Source: Lachnospiraceae bacterium | Lineage (GTDB): Bacteria; Bacillota; Clostridia; Lachnospirales; Lachnospiraceae | Assembly: GCA_030526245.1 (NCBI GenBank) | Contig: JAUNDD010000014.1 | Location: 8,123 to 46,376 of the forward strand | Direction: 5' to 3' | Length of the DNA stretch: 38,254 bases | Shown here: piece by piece, positions 1 through 38,254 of the stretch | How the letters are laid out: each line of letters begins with the position of its first letter | Numbering within the stretch: position 1 is the stretch's first letter | The notes under the pieces: generated by a model | The model's input: the letters and a program-made list of their open reading frames with translations, nothing else | Told to the model about the DNA's origin: nothing | Database searches by the model: none | Program-made: the position numbers and the translations under genes

Positions 1-620
1 CCGGTTCGCGGCGGATATTTTCAAGGTTTCTCACCAGTCTCCGCCGTGCTTGCTCACTCAGAGCCTATCGCTGGCGGAGAATTGGAGCATTTCTTCCTGA
101 GATCCGCCAGGGTTTTCCTTTGGCTCTGGCTCGCGGCGGAGATTTTCAAGGTTTCTCACTGGCCTCCGCCGTGCTTGCTCACTCGTAGCCTGACGCCAGC
201 GGAGAACTGGTGGATTTCTTCCTGGGATCCGCCAGCGTTTTCCTTTGGCTCTGGCTCGCGGCGGATATTTTCAAGGTTTCTCACTGGTCTCCGCCGTGCT
301 TGCTTACTTGTAGCTTGGTGCCGGCGGAGAATTGGTGGATTTCTTCCTGTGAACCGCCAGGTTTTTTCTTTGGCTCCGGTTCGCGGCGGATATTTTCAAG
401 GTTTCTCACCAGTCTCCGCCGTGCTTGCTCTTTGATACTTTGACGCTGGCGGAGAATTGGTAGATTTCTTCCCATGATCCGCCAGCGTTTTTCTTTGGCT
501 CCGGTTCGCGGCGGATCATTTCAAGGTTTCTCACTGGTCTCCGCCGTGCTTGCTCTTTGATACTTTGACGCTGGCGGAGAATTGGAGCATTTCTTCCTGT
601 GAACCGCCGGGTCACTTCGC
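1..620. repeat. Array 1 of 125-bp double-hairpin repeats
   Basis: Five tandem units whose anchor CGCGGCGGA recurs at 7, 132, 257, 382 and 507, an exact 125-bp period. Each unit has two potential hairpins. The first pairs CGCGGCGGA with TCCGCCGTG about 25 bases on, with one G-U. The second pairs GGCGGA with TCCGCC around a conserved GGATTTCTTCC-like loop. Open frames through this stretch follow the repeat period and differ between copies, so no gene is called. The array begins before the window and ends against the rho stop codon. No classic U-tract terminator for rho was found, so the last hairpins may serve as its 3' end. The same family recurs at 14760-15760 and 37985-38254. Confidence 0.93.
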
Positions 621-626
621 TGGCAC

Positions 627-2252
627 TTAGATATGCTTCTGCCGGCGAATTCTTTCCACAAGATCTTCGTTATTGATGGTATGTACGAACATATTCAGGA
701 TGTTTTCCACAGCCTCGTCGCTCTTCATGCCGTTCAAAGCCTTGCGCATAATGTAGACTGCCTCCTGCTCCCGCTCATTAAGGAGCAGATCTTCCCGCCT
801 GGTACCGGACTTTTGGATATCGATGGCCGGGAAGACACGACGCTCGGACAGCTTGCGGTCCAGCACCATCTCCATGTTGCCGGTTCCTTTGAATTCCTCA
901 TACACCACGTCATCCATCTTGCTGCCGGTATCTACCAGGGCCGTGGCCAGGATGGTCAGGCTGCCGCCCTCCCGCATATTTCTGGCTGCGCCAAAGAAAC
1001 GCTTGGGCATGTGCAGTGCCGCCGGATCCAGTCCGCCGGACAGGGTACGGCCGCTGGGCGCCACTGTCAGGTTATAGGCTCTGGCCAATCGAGTGATAGA
1101 GTCGAGCAGAATCGTCACATGCATGCCGTGCTCTACCAGACGCTTGGCTCGCTCGATTCCCATCTCGGATACCTTACGATGATGCTCCGGTGTTTCGTCG
1201 AAGGTGGAATAGAGCACTTCCACATTGTCGCCCACGATGGCTTCCCGGATGTCCGTTACCTCCTCCGGACGCTCATCGATGAGCAGGATCAGGATATGCA
1301 TATCCGGCTCATTTTTCAGAATGGACCGGGCCACATCCTTAAGCAGCGTCGTCTTTCCGGCCTTGGGTGGCGAAACGATCATACCGCGCTGTCCCCGACC
1401 GATGGGCGAGATCAGATCCACAATTCGCATGGAAATATCCTTGCTGCCCCGTTCCATCCGAAGACGCCGGTTCGGGAAGATGGGCGTCATGTCCTCAAAG
1501 TTCATCCGGCGCACGGCCTGCTCCGGTGCCAGACCATTGATGGCCGTCAGGTATAAGAGTGCGCTGTACCGTTCTGTCTGGGCTTTGGCGCGCGTGTGAC
1601 CGGTGACCATGTCGCCGGTCTTCAGGCCAAACTTTCGAATCTGCGACTGTGCTACGTACACATCATTCTCACCAGACAGATAGTTGGCGCTGCGCAGGAA
1701 GCCGTAGCCATCCTGCATGATTTCAAGGATGCCCGTCACGATTTCTCCCATCTGCGGGCGATCTCCCTGCACGCGCTCCTGCTGCGGGCGCTCGTAACGG
1801 TCTCCCTGCACGCGCTCCTGCTGCGGACGTTCATAACGGTCTCCCTGCGCACGTTCCTGCTGCGGGCGTTCGTAGCGCTCTCCCTGCACTCTGTCATTCG
1901 TATAATTTCTGCGCATAAGCTGCTCGCTACGTTCCGCTGCTCCATAGCCCTGACCGCTTCTTCGATTTGCCTGATATTCCCGAGCCTCAGCATTACGCGG
2001 CTGTACATCCTGAGATTCTGCTGCATTCCGGGGCTCGCGTGCTTTTGCCTCCTGAGGCTCATGCATCGCTACTCCCTGGGACTCATATGCCGCTGCCTCC
2101 TGGGGCTCATGCGCCTTCGCCTCCAACGCATCCAGCTCACACATGGCATCGATCAGCTCGCTCTTTTTCATTGTCGATGCATACTTGATCTTTCGATTTT
2201 TTGCAATATCCCGTAAAACGGTCACAGACAGGGTTTCGTATTTTTCTCTCAT
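627..2252 (-). CDS. rho: Transcription termination factor Rho with disordered insertion
   Basis: Hexameric RNA helicase that terminates transcription. Using the chosen start, residues 1-38 match the Rho N-terminal helical domain. Residues 40-167 form a low-complexity Glu/Gln/Arg-rich insertion ending in about three 13-residue repeats ([16 protein letters not shown] period 39 bp at 1762-1890). Residues 169-230 are the cold-shock-like RNA-binding domain, with DGYGFLR. The ATPase follows, with Walker [10 protein letters not shown] near 294-302 and Walker [12 protein letters not shown] near 321-331. The frame stays open upstream to a TTG at 2357. I prefer the ATG at 2252, which gives 541 residues: GGAG lies 5 bases before it, the protein there begins like other Rho proteins, and a terminator-like hairpin lies just upstream. 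The gene is last on its transcript and abuts the repeat array. Confidence 0.96.
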
Positions 2253-2319
2253 ATATTCTCCAGCATTTTCGCTTGCGAAACTATTGTTGTCTTTTCTTTC
2301 CAGCATGTATAAGGCAGTT

Positions 2320-2380
2320 AAAAAATCAGCCTGACTAACATCCTCTACCGGCACCAATCCGCGCTAAAGTCAGGCTGATT
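2320..2380 (-). terminator. Terminator or attenuator upstream of rho
   Basis: A perfect 13-bp inverted repeat pairs 2368-2380 with 2324-2336 across a 31-base loop. On the minus strand it runs directly into a T-tract. It follows the stop of the sigma-like gene (2448) and ends about 70 bases before the preferred rho ATG. I see no convincing promoter between it and rho, so rho may be expressed by readthrough, making this an attenuator. A smaller hairpin (TTTCGC/GCGAAA, 2267-2280) sits just before the rho ribosome site. Confidence 0.7.
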
Positions 2381-13710: not shown

Positions 13711-13812
13711 ATTACGCAGACTCTTTCATTACATTATTGTCATCAATTTCTATATGTCTGCATGTAAAAATTGGTGATTGTTCTTAGTTGTTATGATGAG
13801 GTTTCACCGCTT

Positions 13813-14694
13813 ATGAATACACCACGTGAAATCACCGGCACGACACGCCTCGGCGGTCTTTTGGGTTCTCCGGTGGCCCACTCCCTCTCCCCTCTGATGC
13901 ACAATCTTTCTTTTCGGGAGCTGGGACTTGACTTTGTGTATCTTTGCTTTGACGTAAAAGAAGCGCAGATGCCGTCCATGGCCGCTGCCCTTCGTGAAAT
14001 GAATGTATACGGTTTTAATCTGACCATGCCCTGCAAGCAGGCGATCATCCCCTGTCTGGATGAGCTGTCCGATGCAGCTCGCCTGATCGGCGCCGTCAAT
14101 ACGGTAGTCAACGATAACGGCCGGCTCATCGGCCACAACACCGACGGCATGGGCTTTATGCGCTCGGTTCGCGAGAATGGCTGCGATATCGCCGGCCGCG
14201 AGATGACGTTGCTCGGATCCGGCGGTGCCGCCAGTGCCATTGCGGTGCAGGCTGCCCTGGATGGCGCCAAAGCTCTTCATCTGGCCTGCCGCCGGGGACG
14301 TTCCTGGGGTGCCGCCGAAGAACTGGTCCGCCGCATCAATGAAGGAACCTCCTGTCAGGCCGATCTCATCGAGCTGGCTGATACGACAGCGCTGAAGGAG
14401 CGCCTTGACAATTCTGCCATCCTGGTCAACGGCACCTCTGCCGGCATGTCTCCCAATGAAGAACTGTGCCCGCTGCCGGATACCTCGATCCTGTCTCCGG
14501 AGCTGCTGGTGGGCGATGTGATCTACCATCCGCGCAAAACCAGGCTGATGGCCGAGGCCGAAGCTTTAGGATGCCGTACCTTCAACGGTATGTATATGCT
14601 CCTTTATCAGGGAGCGGCCGCCTTTGAGCTTTGGACCGGGCAGCCGATGCCTGTGGAGGTCGTGCGCCAGGCTTATTTTTCTTCTGAAGCTTGA
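13813..14694 (+). CDS. aroE: Shikimate dehydrogenase
   Basis: NADP(H)-dependent reduction of 3-dehydroshikimate to shikimate. Substrate-binding residues are in place: SLSPLMHN (24-31), catalytic Lys75 in NLTMPCK, GAVNT (93-97) and HNTDG with Asp111. The nucleotide-binding loop GSGGAASA starts near 135. The 293-residue length is typical. The frame is open back to a TTG at 13771, but the ATG at 13813 has TGAGGT 11 bases upstream and begins just before the conserved TRLGGLLGSPV. The gene ends about 65 bases before the second repeat array. Confidence 0.95.
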   Translation: MNTPREITGTTRLGGLLGSPVAHSLSPLMHNLSFRELGLDFVYLCFDVKEAQMPSMAAALREMNVYGFNLTMPCKQAIIPCLDELSDAARLIGAVNTVVNDNGRLIGHNTDGMGFMRSVRENGCDIAGREMTLLGSGGAASAIAVQAALDGAKALHLACRRGRSWGAAEELVRRINEGTSCQADLIELADTTALKERLDNSAILVNGTSAGMSPNEELCPLPDTSILSPELLVGDVIYHPRKTRLMAEAEALGCRTFNGMYMLLYQGAAAFELWTGQPMPVEVVRQAYFSSEA

Positions 14695-14759
14695 TCAAGC
14701 AGTTGTGGCTTGGTTAAGCAGTTGTGGCTTCAAAAGCAGAGAATTTTTCATTTTCTGAT

Positions 14760-15760
14760 TTTGCTCCGCCGTGTGTTTCCCTGTTTTCAGGCTCGCGGCG
14801 GAGCATTTTTTGTTTTCTTGATGTTCTCCGCCGTGCTTGCTTTTTGATACTTCATCGCTGGCGGATCAATGGAGGATTTCTTCCTGTGATCCGCCATACT
14901 CCTTCACTTAATCTGGTTCCGCGGCGGAGAATTCCACTCTTTTCGCTCACCCTCCGCCGTGCTTGTTCTTCGATACGTCATCACTGGCGGATCATTCAAG
15001 GATTTCTTCCTGTGATCCGCCAGGCTCATTCACTTGCTCTGGCCCCGCGGCGGAGATTTTCAACCTTTTCACTCACCCTCCGCCGTGCTTGATTTTTGAT
15101 GCTCTTCGATACGTCATCACTGGCGGATCACTGAAGGATTTCTTCCTATGATCCGCCAGGCTCATTCACTTGCTCTGGCCCCGCGGCGGAGATTTTCAAC
15201 CTTTTCACTCACCCTCCGCCGTGCTTGTTCTTTGATACTTCACCACCGGCGGATCATTCAAGGATTTCTTCCCTCGCTCCGCCAGGCTCATTCATTTGCT
15301 CTAGCTCCGCGGCGGAGAATTCCGACCTTTTCACTCACCATCCGCCGTGCTTGCTCTTCGGTACTTCGTCGCTGGCGGATCATTCAAGGATTTCTTCCTG
15401 TGATCCGCCAGGCTCCTTCACTTGCATTCACTTTCTCTGGTCCCGCGGCAGAGAATTTCAGCCTTTTTGCTCACCCTCCGCCGTGCTTGATTTTTGATGC
15501 GCTTCGATACGTCATCGCCGGCGGATCATTCAAGGATTTCTTCCTGTGATCCGCCAAACTCCTTCACTTGTTCTGGTCCCGCGGCGGAGAATTCCAGCCT
15601 TTTCGCTCACCCTCCGCCGTGCTTGATTTTTGATGCTCTTCGATACGTCATCACTGGCGGATCACTGAAGGATTTCTTCCTGTGATCCGCCATACTCCTT
15701 CACTTACTCTGGTTTCGCGGCGGAGAATTCCAACCTTTTCACTCACCCTCCGCCGTGCTT
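14760..15760. repeat. Array 2 of 126/136-bp double-hairpin repeats
   Basis: Anchors of CGCGGCGGA type at 14794, 14920, 15046, 15182, 15308, 15444, 15580 and 15716, with spacings of 126 or 136. The added 10 bases come from a longer GATTTTTGATGC-type linker in three units and an insertion near 15420 in another. The second hairpin is best formed here: CTGGCGGATCA pairs perfectly with TGATCCGCCAG around an AAGGATTTCTTCCTG-type loop. The array fills the gap between convergent aroE and ftsZ. Copies within it resemble each other more than those of arrays 1 and 3. The open frames it produces are not genes. Confidence 0.93.
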
Positions 15761-15766
15761 GCATTA

Positions 15767-15799
15767 TAAAAAGGGCGCCACGCTTACGCGTGACGCCCT
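15767..15799 (-). terminator. ftsZ terminator
   Basis: 12-bp stem (15788-15799 with 15772-15783, one G-U), 4-base loop, then a T-rich tract on the minus strand, about 20 bases after the ftsZ stop codon. It sits immediately beside repeat array 2. Confidence 0.93.
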
Positions 15800-15818
15800 C
15801 ACTTGTTCAAATATCAGA

Positions 15819-17021
15819 TTAACCTCTTCTCAGGAACTCCGGAATCTGGATATCCTTCTCGGTTACCGTGCTCTCCGGCGTGCGGAGCTGTACGCGGCCA
15901 TTCGAGGTCGTCTGACTCTGTGCCGGCTTCTGTGCCGGTGCAGCGGGTCTGGCCGGTGCAGGTGCTGCCGGCTTCTGAAAGCTGAAGCCACCTGCAGGAC
16001 GGCTCTCCTGTCTGGGATAACGATAATCCGGTGCTACTGCGCGGCGCTGGGGTTTCTTCTCCGGCTTGCCGGCTTCTTCCAGACCGGTAGCGATTACCGT
16101 GATGCTTACCTCGTCCGCATAGGTATCGTCGTACATAGCACCCATAATGATGTTTGCGTTTTCGCCAACCAGCTCTTCCACGTAGGAAGCGGCATCGTTG
16201 GCATCCATCAGAGAGATATCACCGCAGATATTAATGATAACATCGCTGGCACCCTCAATGGTGGTTTCAAGCAGCGGGCTGGCAACAGCCTGCTTAACAG
16301 CCTCAAGTGCCTTGTCATCGCCCTTAGCCTGACCGATACCGATATGAGCAATGCCCTTATCCTTCATAACGGTCTGAACATCAGCGAAGTCAAGGTTGAT
16401 CAGAGCCTCCAGGTTGATCAGGTCCGTGATACCCTGTACGGACTGCTGCAGTACCTCATCCGCCTTCTTCAGTGCTTCCGGCATGGTGGTTCTGCGATCT
16501 ACGATCTCAAGAAGCTTATCGTTCGGGATCACGATCAGTGTATCCACGTTCTCTTTCAGTCTTTCGATACCGGACAGAGCGTTGTTCATACGAACCTTTG
16601 CCTCAAAACGGAACGGCTTGGTTACAACGCCGACAGTCAGGATACCCATTTCCTTGGCAATTCCGGCAACTACCGGAGCAGCACCGGTTCCGGTTCCGCC
16701 GCCCATACCGCAGGTAACAAACACCATGTCTGCTCCTGAGATAGCCTGACGGATGTCTTCCGCGCTCTCTTCTGCTGCCTGCTGACCTACTTCCGGTCTT
16801 GCACCGGCACCAAGTCCCTTGGTTACCTTCTCACCGATCTGAATAACGACCGGAGCCTTACAATTGGTCAGAGCCTGTTTATCCGTATTGATCCCTATAA
16901 ATTCAACGCCGCCGATTGTATCTTCTACCATGCGGTTCACAGCATTGTTACCTGCGCCGCCGACACCGACTACGATTATTTTCGCTGCCGCTTCAATCTC
17001 ATTAGACGTAATTTCTAACAC
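15819..17021 (-). CDS. ftsZ: Cell division GTPase FtsZ
   Basis: Tubulin homologue that builds the Z-ring. The GTPase core has [15 protein letters not shown] near 17-31 and the tubulin signature GGGTGTG at 107-113. A Pro/Ala/Gln-rich linker starts near 320, and the C-terminal peptide IPEFLRR, used by membrane tethers, is intact. Length is 400 residues. The start is GTG at 17021 with AAGGAGG 7 bases upstream. ftsZ ends the division cluster but has its own promoter. No ftsA was seen beside it, so the tether must be encoded elsewhere (SepF is likely in such organisms). Confidence 0.98.
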
Positions 17022-35296: not shown

Positions 35297-35411
35297 TTTC
35301 ATTTAAGGTGTCGTGAGTGATTACGGATTGCTGCGTGCTGCGCACTCCCGCAATCCTGTCCGCCATTCGCAATCCTCGGGGCCCCTCCCCCGCTTCTTGC
35401 TCATGTCGGGC

Positions 35412-35473
35412 GTGTCATTAAGCCACACTTCCACTTTCATGCAAGCATGAAGTGGAGGTGTGACTTTTGACAC
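35412..35473. repeat. Long-hairpin repeat, copy 2
   Basis: Same element as 35236-35296, here with an outer GTGTCA/TGACAC pair as well. Several differences between the copies preserve pairing, for example CCAC facing GTGG here. Confidence 0.8.
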
Positions 35474-35489
35474 TGTAATCACAAAGAGG

Positions 35490-36652: not shown

Positions 36653-36683
36653 ATTGCTCTCCTTCCTTCAAGCATTTGTTTCA

Positions 36684-36890
36684 GGACAAAGCGTGCTATG
36701 CACGCTAGCCGCTCTGCGGCGTTTGTCCGGATACTTGCCCGATTTTACATCGGGCCCGTTGGAATTCCGTTATGAATTTCAACGAAAGGACAAAGCGTGC
36801 CATGCACGCTAGCCGCTCTGCGGCGTTTGTCCGGATACTTGCCCGATCTTGCATCGGGCCCGTTGGAATTCCGTTATGAATGTCCAACAA
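36684..36890 (-). repeat. Two tandem 104-bp structured units in the rpoD leader
   Basis: Units start at 36684 and 36788. Each can fold, on the minus strand, into three parts. A hairpin GTTG..CAAC is followed by GCCCGAT/ATCGGGC. Then a three-way junction is closed by GGACAAA/TTTGTCC, holding GCCGC-AGA-GCGGC and GCGTGC-ATA-GCACGC hairpins. Most differences between the two units fall in loops. A diverged relative occurs at 7979-8075, so the unit is a dispersed element and not rpoD-specific. Confidence 0.85.
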
Positions 36891-37065: not shown

Positions 37066-37977
37066 TCACTGCTTCCAGTATCCCGGATTCATGGTCAGCT
37101 TCTCAATCATCCGATCCGGCAGTTTCCGGTAGGCTTTGCCCAGCTTATAGCCGATGAGCTTGCAGCCGGTCTGCCAGAAAAGCTTCGGCAGATAGATCAT
37201 CTTGCCATTCTTTGACAGATACCGGATCTGGCTGGTCACCATCTTCAGACCTTCCTTCTCCGAGCTGACGCTTTCAAAGATGCCCGGATACTGAGCCTGG
37301 GACACGCCCAGATCAAAATTGCGGCGCAGCTGCTGCAGTCCGCTGTAGCTGTGTGAATGAATCACCTGCGCTTCCGGTTCATACACTACCGCATAGCCGG
37401 ATCGCACTGCCCGGCCCGCCAGGATCATGTCCTCATTGAAGATCACATGCTTTTCAAAACCGCAGAGCCGCTCGTAGATGCTGCGCCGGTAAGCCGCACA
37501 CACATCCGAGCAGAAGAAGGTCTTGATACCCAGCCGGGGCAGGTCATCCGCGGTCTTCTTCCGGCGGATCTGTCCGTAATTGAAGGACCGGGAATAACGC
37601 TCCAGAGGATCCGCTCCGGGTGCCGGCAGCTGTCTGGCGTAAACACAGGCCACATCCTCCTCGGCAAAATCAGCCATCAGCTCCTCAATCAGGTATTCAT
37701 CCTTGGGTACCGCATCCTGGGTCATGAACAGCATCACATCCGTATCACACAGCTCCGCTGCCATGGCTCTGGTTCCGCCGTGGTCAAACTCCTCCGGCCG
37801 GATGTGTACCACCTCGGCTCCTGGATAGTGCTGCAAAGCCTGGGGTCTGAACCACTCTTCACCGGTGTTGACGACCAGCACCCGCTCCGGCTGCTGCCGC
37901 TGCAGAGCCAGCATCCGCAGGATGCGGTCAAATCGCTCATCCGGTTTATATGTCAGTATGATCACCGTTAATGTCAT
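37066..37977 (-). CDS. Family 2 glycosyltransferase, rhamnosyltransferase-like
   Basis: 303-residue cytoplasmic enzyme with a GT-A fold, probably acting in polysaccharide or wall-glycan synthesis. TVIILTYKPDERF (4-16) starts the nucleotide-sugar domain; FDHGGTRAMAA (64-74) and MTQDAVP (85-91) resemble the rhamnosyl-type GT2 group, and FNEDMILAGRAV carries the probable catalytic-base acidic residues. Donor and acceptor are unknown. The frame extends to 38028 within the repeat array, but the ATG at 37977 with TAGGAG 8 bases before it is the clear start. That ribosome site lies in the edge of repeat array 3. The upstream gene lies outside the window. Confidence 0.92.
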   Translation of the reverse strand: MTLTVIILTYKPDERFDRILRMLALQRQQPERVLVVNTGEEWFRPQALQHYPGAEVVHIRPEEFDHGGTRAMAAELCDTDVMLFMTQDAVPKDEYLIEELMADFAEEDVACVYARQLPAPGADPLERYSRSFNYGQIRRKKTADDLPRLGIKTFFCSDVCAAYRRSIYERLCGFEKHVIFNEDMILAGRAVRSGYAVVYEPEAQVIHSHSYSGLQQLRRNFDLGVSQAQYPGIFESVSSEKEGLKMVTSQIRYLSKNGKMIYLPKLFWQTGCKLIGYKLGKAYRKLPDRMIEKLTMNPGYWKQ

Positions 37978-37984
37978 GCACACT

Positions 37985-38254
37985 CTCCTACCCTGGCTCG
38001 CGGCGGAGTTTTTCGCGCTTTTTGTCATCCCTCCGCCGTGCCTGCTCTATGATACTTCATCGCTGGCGGATCGTTTAGAGATTTCTTCCCTCGCTCCGCC
38101 CGGCATTTTCTCCTGCCCGGGCTCGCGGCGGAGTTTTTCGCGTTTTTCCTTATCCCTCCGCCGTGCCTGCTCTATGATACTTCATCGCTGGCGGAGCATT
38201 TGAGGATTTCTTCCCTTGCTCCGCCCGGCATTTTCTCCTACCCTGGCTCGCGGC
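37985..38254. repeat. Array 3 of 125-bp double-hairpin repeats, cut by window end
   Basis: Anchors CGCGGCGGA at 37999 and 38124, and CGCGGC at 38249, period exactly 125. Same design as arrays 1 and 2, but with array-specific sequence such as TTTTTCGCG in the first loop. In the second unit the stem reads GGCGGAGCA/TGCTCCGCC where array 2 has GGCGGATCA/TGATCCGCC, a paired change. The array continues beyond the window. Confidence 0.92.

Follow-up and report, generated by a model that had tools for sequence, protein, structure and literature searches.

Tandem hairpin arrays oriented with GC skew in a gut Lachnospiraceae genome

Arrays of a short hairpin, GGCGGA-N24-TCCGCC, occur in the genome of an uncultured gut Lachnospiraceae bacterium, and nearly all of them are oriented in the same manner with respect to GC skew. 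We lean, with moderate confidence, toward regarding these arrays as a non-coding, non-autonomous, untagged DNA repeat of the REP/BIME-like kind that is amplified locally and oriented by replication, with lagging-strand single-stranded DNA as the probable, inferred route. The element acts like tandem REP arrays, yet by the features tested it is no member of the tagged REP families.

The source genome is a MAG of 1,508,271 bp distributed over 35 contigs and 60% complete. The stretch of DNA analyzed, hereafter referred to as the window, comprises 38,254 nucleotides within contig C25. The best named match to the FtsZ encoded therein, 83% identical across the length of the protein, belongs to a Lachnospiraceae MAG. 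A Clostridiales-1 RNA (RF01699; 131 bits, Rfam) is located outside the arrays at window positions 35318-35481 on the minus strand.

Organization of the repeat unit

A preliminary description of this DNA placed arrays at 1-620, 14760-15760, and 37985-38254, and three arrays are indeed present there. The relevant features of the window, with genes assigned on the basis of Pfam, are as follows.

1..608, plus strand: array 1, ten hairpins with starts from 10 to 573, types A and B alternating, spacing 63/62
627..2357, minus strand: rho, right neighbor of array 1, 3' end toward the array
13771..14694, plus strand: aroE (shikimate dehydrogenase), adjoining array 2 on the left
14735..15754, plus strand: array 2, 16 hairpins, the first degenerate, spacing 62, 63, or 73, between the convergent aroE and ftsZ
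14986..15021, plus strand: example of a B hairpin with a GGATTTCTTCC center; RNA fold z -6.7 on this strand and -5.4 on the other
15049..15084, plus strand: one of the A hairpins, with CGC before it and GTGC after it
15085..15121, plus strand: A-to-B linker of 37 rather than 27 bp (spacing 73 rather than 63), judged by eye to be an imperfect tandem duplication of 10 bp
15771..15800, minus strand: terminator-like stem-loop with a T-run, between ftsZ and array 2
15819..17021, minus strand: ftsZ, adjoining array 2 on the right
37066..37977, minus strand: family 2 glycosyltransferase, left of array 3, 5' end toward the array (start picked by eye; the longest open reading frame would begin at 38028, within array 3)
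38002..38254, plus strand: array 3, four hairpins, spacing 63/62, running to the contig end

The basic unit is a single 36-nt hairpin with a central TTT that repeats every 62, 63, or 73 bp, the monomer being formed by the 36-bp hairpin and a linker of ~27 bp. There are 25 exact GGCGGA-N24-TCCGCC sites in the window, whereas every other spacer length between 4 and 60 taken together yields 1 site. With up to two arm mismatches allowed and 4 singleton matches left out, the window contains 30 clustered hairpins (10, 16, and 4 in arrays 1, 2, and 3, respectively), or ~15 dimers, in keeping with the earlier count of at least 14 complete units. The hairpins alternate as two types, A and B, and thus the 125-bp double-hairpin unit originally described is a dimer: its periodicity is real, but the monomer is one hairpin per ~63 bp, and 125 is the sum of 63 and 62 in an A + B pair. 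The 126- and 136-bp spacings reported for array 2 likewise represent 63+63 and 63+73 dimers, to which a single case of 73+73 can be added. Type A hairpins are preceded by CGC and mostly followed by GTGC, whereas type B hairpins are mostly preceded by CT or CC and often followed by AGG. The loop GGATTTCTTCC, first thought to be conserved in all units, is often found in B hairpins; those of type A have other loops, and only the TTT center is common to both. A trimer with a period of 199 bp (63+63+73) is observed at C25:1043-2165.

Eight further hairpins (C25:7517-7990) are positioned to the left of array 1, separated from it by a 100-N assembly gap that closes right where the window begins. Array 3 probably continues into contig C21, as judged from the near-identical units there.

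Copy number and spacing across the genome

A search of the whole genome for GGCGGA-N24-TCCGCC yielded 79 exact sites versus 3 for the reversed control, and 104 versus 13 when one mismatch was allowed. A covariance model was built from 80 distinct hairpins, and the genome search with it scored 150 of 1,241 candidates. It identified 99 hairpins at E <= 0.01, all in arrays, on contigs C1, C3, C5, C10, C21, C25, C29, and C35. The arrays number 12 (that on C35 counted once), and they fall between called genes wherever genes were called on both sides, many of them having one side at a contig end. Eight of the 12 extend to a contig end and two are interrupted by 100-N gaps, and therefore the value of 99 is a lower bound. 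The expectation of hundreds of units per genome is not substantiated, the 99 matches corresponding to ~50 dimers in the assembled 60%.

The start-to-start steps between hairpins are strikingly uniform. For 98 hairpins in 12 arrays there are 86 steps, namely 62 bp (21 cases), 63 bp (51), and 73 bp (9); of the remaining five, three are C35 steps of 125/126 that span a degenerate slot, and two cross the 100-N gaps. The arm boxes were also chained, with up to one mismatch and steps of 20-60 bp only, a count that covers array 1 to the right of its N gap and part of the C35 array. Within hairpins the arm-to-arm distance is 30 in 87 of 89 cases, the two others being 29 and 40. The 79 distances between hairpins are 33 (49 cases), 32 (20), 43 (9), and 23 (1). 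The boxes thus recur every ~31.3 bp, which is near three helical turns. The length changes observed amount to 1 or 10 bp, whereas the linker sequences vary among arrays. Taken together, the 1- or 10-bp steps and the ~31.3-bp recurrence are suggestive of a constraint at the level of the duplex, but few of the changes look independent. Note that counts of 13 array stretches arise because the orientation count divides the C35 array in two and the box-chaining count divides an array at the N gap; the arrays remain 12.

Homogenization within arrays

Copies had been proposed to be more alike inside an array than from one array to another, and this proved to be so for both hairpin types. For type A the identity is 0.863 within arrays versus 0.697 between them, and for type B the corresponding values are 0.779 and 0.645; in neither case did any of 500 label shuffles reach as high. 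Identities between A and B hairpins are 0.538 in the same array and 0.551 in different arrays, so A and B are not converging. These comparisons employed 95 hairpins (up to two arm mismatches and up to one in the TTT) with the types set by a simple foot rule, which assigns the C35 hairpins, as well as hairpin three of the trimer, to type B and thereby lowers the B identities. The within-array excess supports the local amplification or homogenization suggested at the outset, and the unit that is copied or homogenized is the dimer or, in one array, the trimer.

The C35 array, L134:5751-6290 (G000:C35), contains degenerate B slots, one with its right arm displaced by 10 bp. This array inverts at a hairpin arm with the 63-bp step kept.

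Orientation with respect to GC skew

The array strand, defined as that carrying TTTC, is the C-rich strand, opposite the G-rich strand, in 12 of the 13 array stretches on eight contigs. The sole exception is the inverted tail of the C35 array, which consists of two hairpins. GC skew was measured with the arrays masked on all eight contigs (for C35, from 92 kb of 248 kb), and the eight 95% block-bootstrap intervals all exclude zero. The G-rich strand was taken as the leading strand, the direction of the fork being deduced from the GC skew of a MAG that is itself fragmented. Contigs C29 (0.007), C25 (-0.029), and C21 (-0.036) have a weak third-position skew. Arrays sharing a contig share one skew value and hence are not independent tests. 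The similarity of their units suggests that the end of C25 and the start of C21 may be one array, and the end of C1 and the start of C29 another, in which case the tally would become 10/11.

On six of the contigs the G-rich strand carries most of the genes. On C29, a short and mixed contig, they are even in number, and on C3 there are 12,009 coding bases against the skew versus 7,544 with it. The C35 and C3 arrays follow the skew despite called neighbors on the opposite strand (on both sides for C35 and the only one for C3), and accordingly transcription alone does not explain the orientation. Such orientation is also not general to bacterial repeats, since a G-rich repeat in Xanthomonas, unlike the one described here, is reported to have no leading/lagging preference (PMC4692102).

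Other hairpin families

Two other families of hairpin repeats in the genus show a similar behavior; the GGCGGA hairpin and these 104-bp and 86-bp families are mutually unrelated. The 104-bp family has several stem-loops per unit and is represented in the window by two tandem copies at 36683-36881. There are 45 matches in the genome and none in 12 same-genus genomes. All 43 of the non-overlapping matches in the stretches examined (E <= 0.01, unmerged) are oriented alike with respect to GC skew, a count that leaves out matches elsewhere such as C27:5023 and C15:26849. The former, which is weak and partial, runs in the direction opposite to that of the strong match on C27. When matches within 300 bp were merged at E <= 1e-6, as was done for the locus counts of both families, 33 of 33 loci were found to follow the skew, whereas only 24/31 shared the prevailing relation to the left gene and 23/30 that to the right gene.

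The 86-bp family occurs in another genome of the genus, G004, with two stem-loops per unit, often in tandem, as at L165:4030-4227 (G004:C2). Its 59 matches there include some that are reverse-strand echoes of palindromes. Across 30 G004 stretches, 41 of 43 loci follow the skew, with which gene direction in this genome is mostly confounded (left 38/41, right 39/42). Two further tandem repeats were noted: a 57/117-bp, intergenic-looking repeat in another same-genus genome at L202:3422-3684 (G010:C1), and a 152-bp repeat (L074:3337-3776; 2.9 copies) located upstream of ftsZ in a MAG of Candidatus Scatomonas.

Distribution and relationship to known families

The GGCGGA hairpin appears to be private to this genome. 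The covariance model matched none of 12 same-genus genomes, only the genome itself and one chance match among 397 genomes of the family, and only the genome itself among 391 of the class; the family and class samples overlap, include the source genome, and were searched with stricter filters (14-15 candidates scored per genome). The chance match, at 28 bits (G145, L139), was so regarded since it lies within an apparent, coding-like protein repeat. The exact-arm pattern is present in 17 of 60 relatives at 0-4 sites each versus 0-3 for the control. A B-hairpin pattern gave no match in named genomes (GTDB 220), in a search that is blind to arrays lacking B loops and may omit near-window records. 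TRF revealed other tandem repeats, but none with this hairpin unit, at 80 ftsZ loci of named relatives (periods >=40) and in 40 stretches (642 kb) from seven same-genus genomes.

The arrays of the window have no Rfam match at gathering cut-offs. At E <= 1, array 2 gives PyrG_leader with 25.9 bits (cut-off 65) and BjrC68 with 15.7 (39), both far below, and a structured RNA family of Rfam 15 was rejected as an identity, no array score reaching a gathering cut-off. Array 2 has no match among plasmids and phages, nor did one pattern with 20 fixed bases in IMG/VR. The first impression that no named family has this layout therefore stands as far as names in these collections are concerned, although the layout itself has a precedent in the tandem REP arrays described in PMC3116915. 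The open-licence literature searched yielded no paper that describes the GGCGGA hairpin repeat or an orientation rule shared across a genus. CRISPR loci are similar in having a partly palindromic 36-bp repeat at regular spacing, but they contain unique spacers, whereas the linkers between the hairpins are repeated here, and thus the layout is not CRISPR-like, as had been recognized from the beginning.

With 99 matches the hairpin is, like a REP, a short extragenic palindrome in high copy number. The closest likeness is to the tandem REP arrays (GI/GIII) of Pseudomonas fluorescens SBW25, in which two palindrome types alternate in tandem at fixed spacings (PMC3116915); this comparison is of layout as described rather than of sequence. 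Five of the SBW25 arrays, at ~2 Mbp, are all forward and six, at ~4 Mbp, are reverse, such that array orientation differs between the two sides of the genome (PMC3116915). Each of the three SBW25 REP groups is near a RAYT gene and also forms REPINs (PMC3116915), and no such link was found here. The BIME/REP systems with RAYT in E. coli and others share with the present arrays regularly spaced extragenic palindromes in modules and ~100 copies (PMC2817692). BIMEs, which are also characterized by binding of gyrase, IHF, or Pol I, alternate in REP orientation, whereas the central TTT indicates a single orientation for A and B; the GT[AG]G head and flanking RAYT of those systems (PMC2817692) were not found for the hairpins described here. 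The GTAG and CGTC superfamilies are likewise 20-40 bp palindromic repeats in high copy, but they are tagged (PMC3733652). Within 8 nt of the arms, GT[AG]G occurs in 0/95 hairpins on the TTTC strand and in 6/95 on the other, and a CGTC tag by the stem in 1/95 and 0/95, respectively. Intergenic stem-loop families restricted to single species are common according to a 40-genome survey, the main text of which does not contain the words "tandem," "orientation," or "replication" (PMC2267715).

A single Y1_Tnp (RAYT-like) gene above the Pfam cut-off is located 13 kb from the nearest array. The covariance model shows no hairpin near it, and it is on the model that this absence rests, because the similarity search used seeds of 9, which exceed the 6-base arms. 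A perfect 17-bp palindrome lies beside this gene at L017:13961-13995 (G000:C3), with more copies on C3, C10, and C15, and is possibly its true partner repeat. The notion of a rayt gene flanked by the array palindromes was thus rejected for the one gene found, which adjoins a different palindrome; in a MAG that is 60% complete another rayt gene could be missing. Y1_Tnp matches are present in 10 of the 12 same-genus genomes, none of which has GGCGGA hairpins.

Pairing and folding

The GGCGGA/TCCGCC arms are near-invariant and, since they hardly vary, are uninformative for or against pairing. Pairs 6-47, 7-46, 8-45, and 15-38 (alignment numbering) are altered on both sides in some copies, which largely reflects the difference between A and B. 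The cells with two-sided change number 50 versus 30.5 in shuffles (0/500 as high), whereas the pairs showing such change number 4 versus 4.1. The evidence for the conserved pairing originally claimed is weak and mixed, being favorable by the first measure and not by the second. RNAalifold, applied to all 80 hairpins, kept three near-invariant pairs and gave no covariation. When ten TTTC-strand hairpins were folded singly, five had z values of -2.2 to -6.7 and five of 0 to -1.4; pairing outside of the arms is therefore uneven. One of two reverse-strand folds was nearly as good (z -5.4). Pair 7-46 is a G-T in 39 of 95 hairpins and pairs on the TTTC strand only. The stabilities of the DNA hairpins on the two strands are nearly equal, at -9.43 versus -9.30 kcal/mol (n=95; 46 stabler on one strand and 42 on the other), and unequal hairpin stability is accordingly an unlikely cause of the orientation and was set aside.

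A terminator scan of array 2 located one terminator-like site only, that belonging to ftsZ and outside of the array. Sites with a stem and T-run number 3 versus 1.9 in shuffles for array 1 and 2 versus 1.0 for the C35 array. Both of these counts are near shuffle level, and the scanned arrays (1, 2, and C35) were not assigned to the intrinsic terminators.

Proposed mechanism and alternative explanations

Inside each array it is the dimer of the diverged monomers A and B that is copied and homogenized. According to the explanation that we favor, new copies would be generated and mobilized from DNA left single-stranded at one side of the fork, presumably the lagging-strand template. Two IS200/IS605 (Y1) transposases act on the lagging-strand template (PMC6006769), and this property, together with our orientation results and the orientation of the SBW25 arrays, leads us to suggest that the present arrays grow and spread via single-stranded DNA at the fork. 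Slippage, or template switching from one hairpin arm to another, could account for local growth. The arms may act as switch points, the C35 array flipping at an arm with its 63-bp spacing unchanged. Dispersal might be carried out by an ssDNA-processing enzyme of the HUH/Y1 type, either acting in trans or missing from the assembly; no mobilizing enzyme tied to the GGCGGA repeat was found in the 60%-complete MAG. A broader proposal is possible but doubtful, namely a genus-wide rule by which unrelated, species-private hairpin repeats would be actively locked to one replication strand. Such locking could come about through a shared ssDNA machine confined to insertion or copying on the lagging-strand template, or through a function that reads fork direction and is signaled by helically phased arrays.

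Given the regular spacing, the arrays might instead be a phased platform in duplex DNA, in which GGCGGA boxes of alternating orientation serve as binding sites for gyrase, a nucleoid protein, or a directional translocase and are kept for chromosome organization, as proposed for BIME-2, which binds gyrase (PMC2817692). A box every ~31.3 bp matches three turns of 10.4-10.5 bp, the boxes are near-invariant as expected of a protein site, and the 10-bp insertions in the A-to-B and B-to-A linkers of array 2 look separate by eye, with a third in the trimer array. Linker lengths inherited within arrays, however, explain most of the regularity, the independent changes being few and judged by eye; the distances derive from chained steps of 20-60 bp only, and the C35 array holds a 40/23 pair. 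Gyrase and nucleoid proteins are conserved, yet the repeat is found only in this genome, and we consider such a platform unlikely. A role at the RNA level, with the TTTC strand giving rise to mRNA 3' hairpins, terminators, or a repeat RNA, would accommodate the five stable folds, the G-T pair specific to that strand, and the excess of two-sided cells. It fits poorly with the other five folds, the nearly as stable reverse strand, the three pairs devoid of covariation, the lack of an Rfam match at cut-off, terminator-like sites near shuffle level in array 1 and C35 and, in array 2, limited to that of ftsZ. Moreover, the strand tracks GC skew where skew and called genes disagree, and an RNA-level element is therefore quite improbable.

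The orientation could also be the outcome of a filter acting on a passive satellite, wrong-way copies within a replichore being lost through harmful inversions. One rule across three unrelated families is what a general filter would give, and the copies do homogenize locally. Loci of the 104-bp and 86-bp families, on the other hand, are mostly 1-4 merged matches of ~100 bp, which is short for homologous inversion, and the 43/43 count shows no remnant of recent wrong-way insertions, such that this explanation is highly improbable. Mobilization of a REP family by the RAYT-like transposase of the genome itself is scarcely tenable: the Y1_Tnp gene is present and scores over the Pfam cut-off, but no model match lies nearby, a different palindrome adjoins it, and the GT[AG]G foot is missing from the TTTC strand and rare (6/95) on the other.

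Implications

The usual explanation of REP-like repeats invokes a tagged foot together with a partner RAYT, and neither was found for this repeat. That tandem REP arrays can have opposite orientations on opposite sides of a chromosome is already known from SBW25 (PMC3116915). The part worth pursuing is the near-strict orientation to GC skew, which is common to two other unrelated families. Arrays of this type break assemblies, as is evident from the contig ends and N gaps, and thus they are probably undercounted in MAGs. This repeat makes the origin and spread of bacterial palindromic repeats testable in a new setting: if single-stranded DNA at the fork is the route, the orientation should be fixed at insertion.
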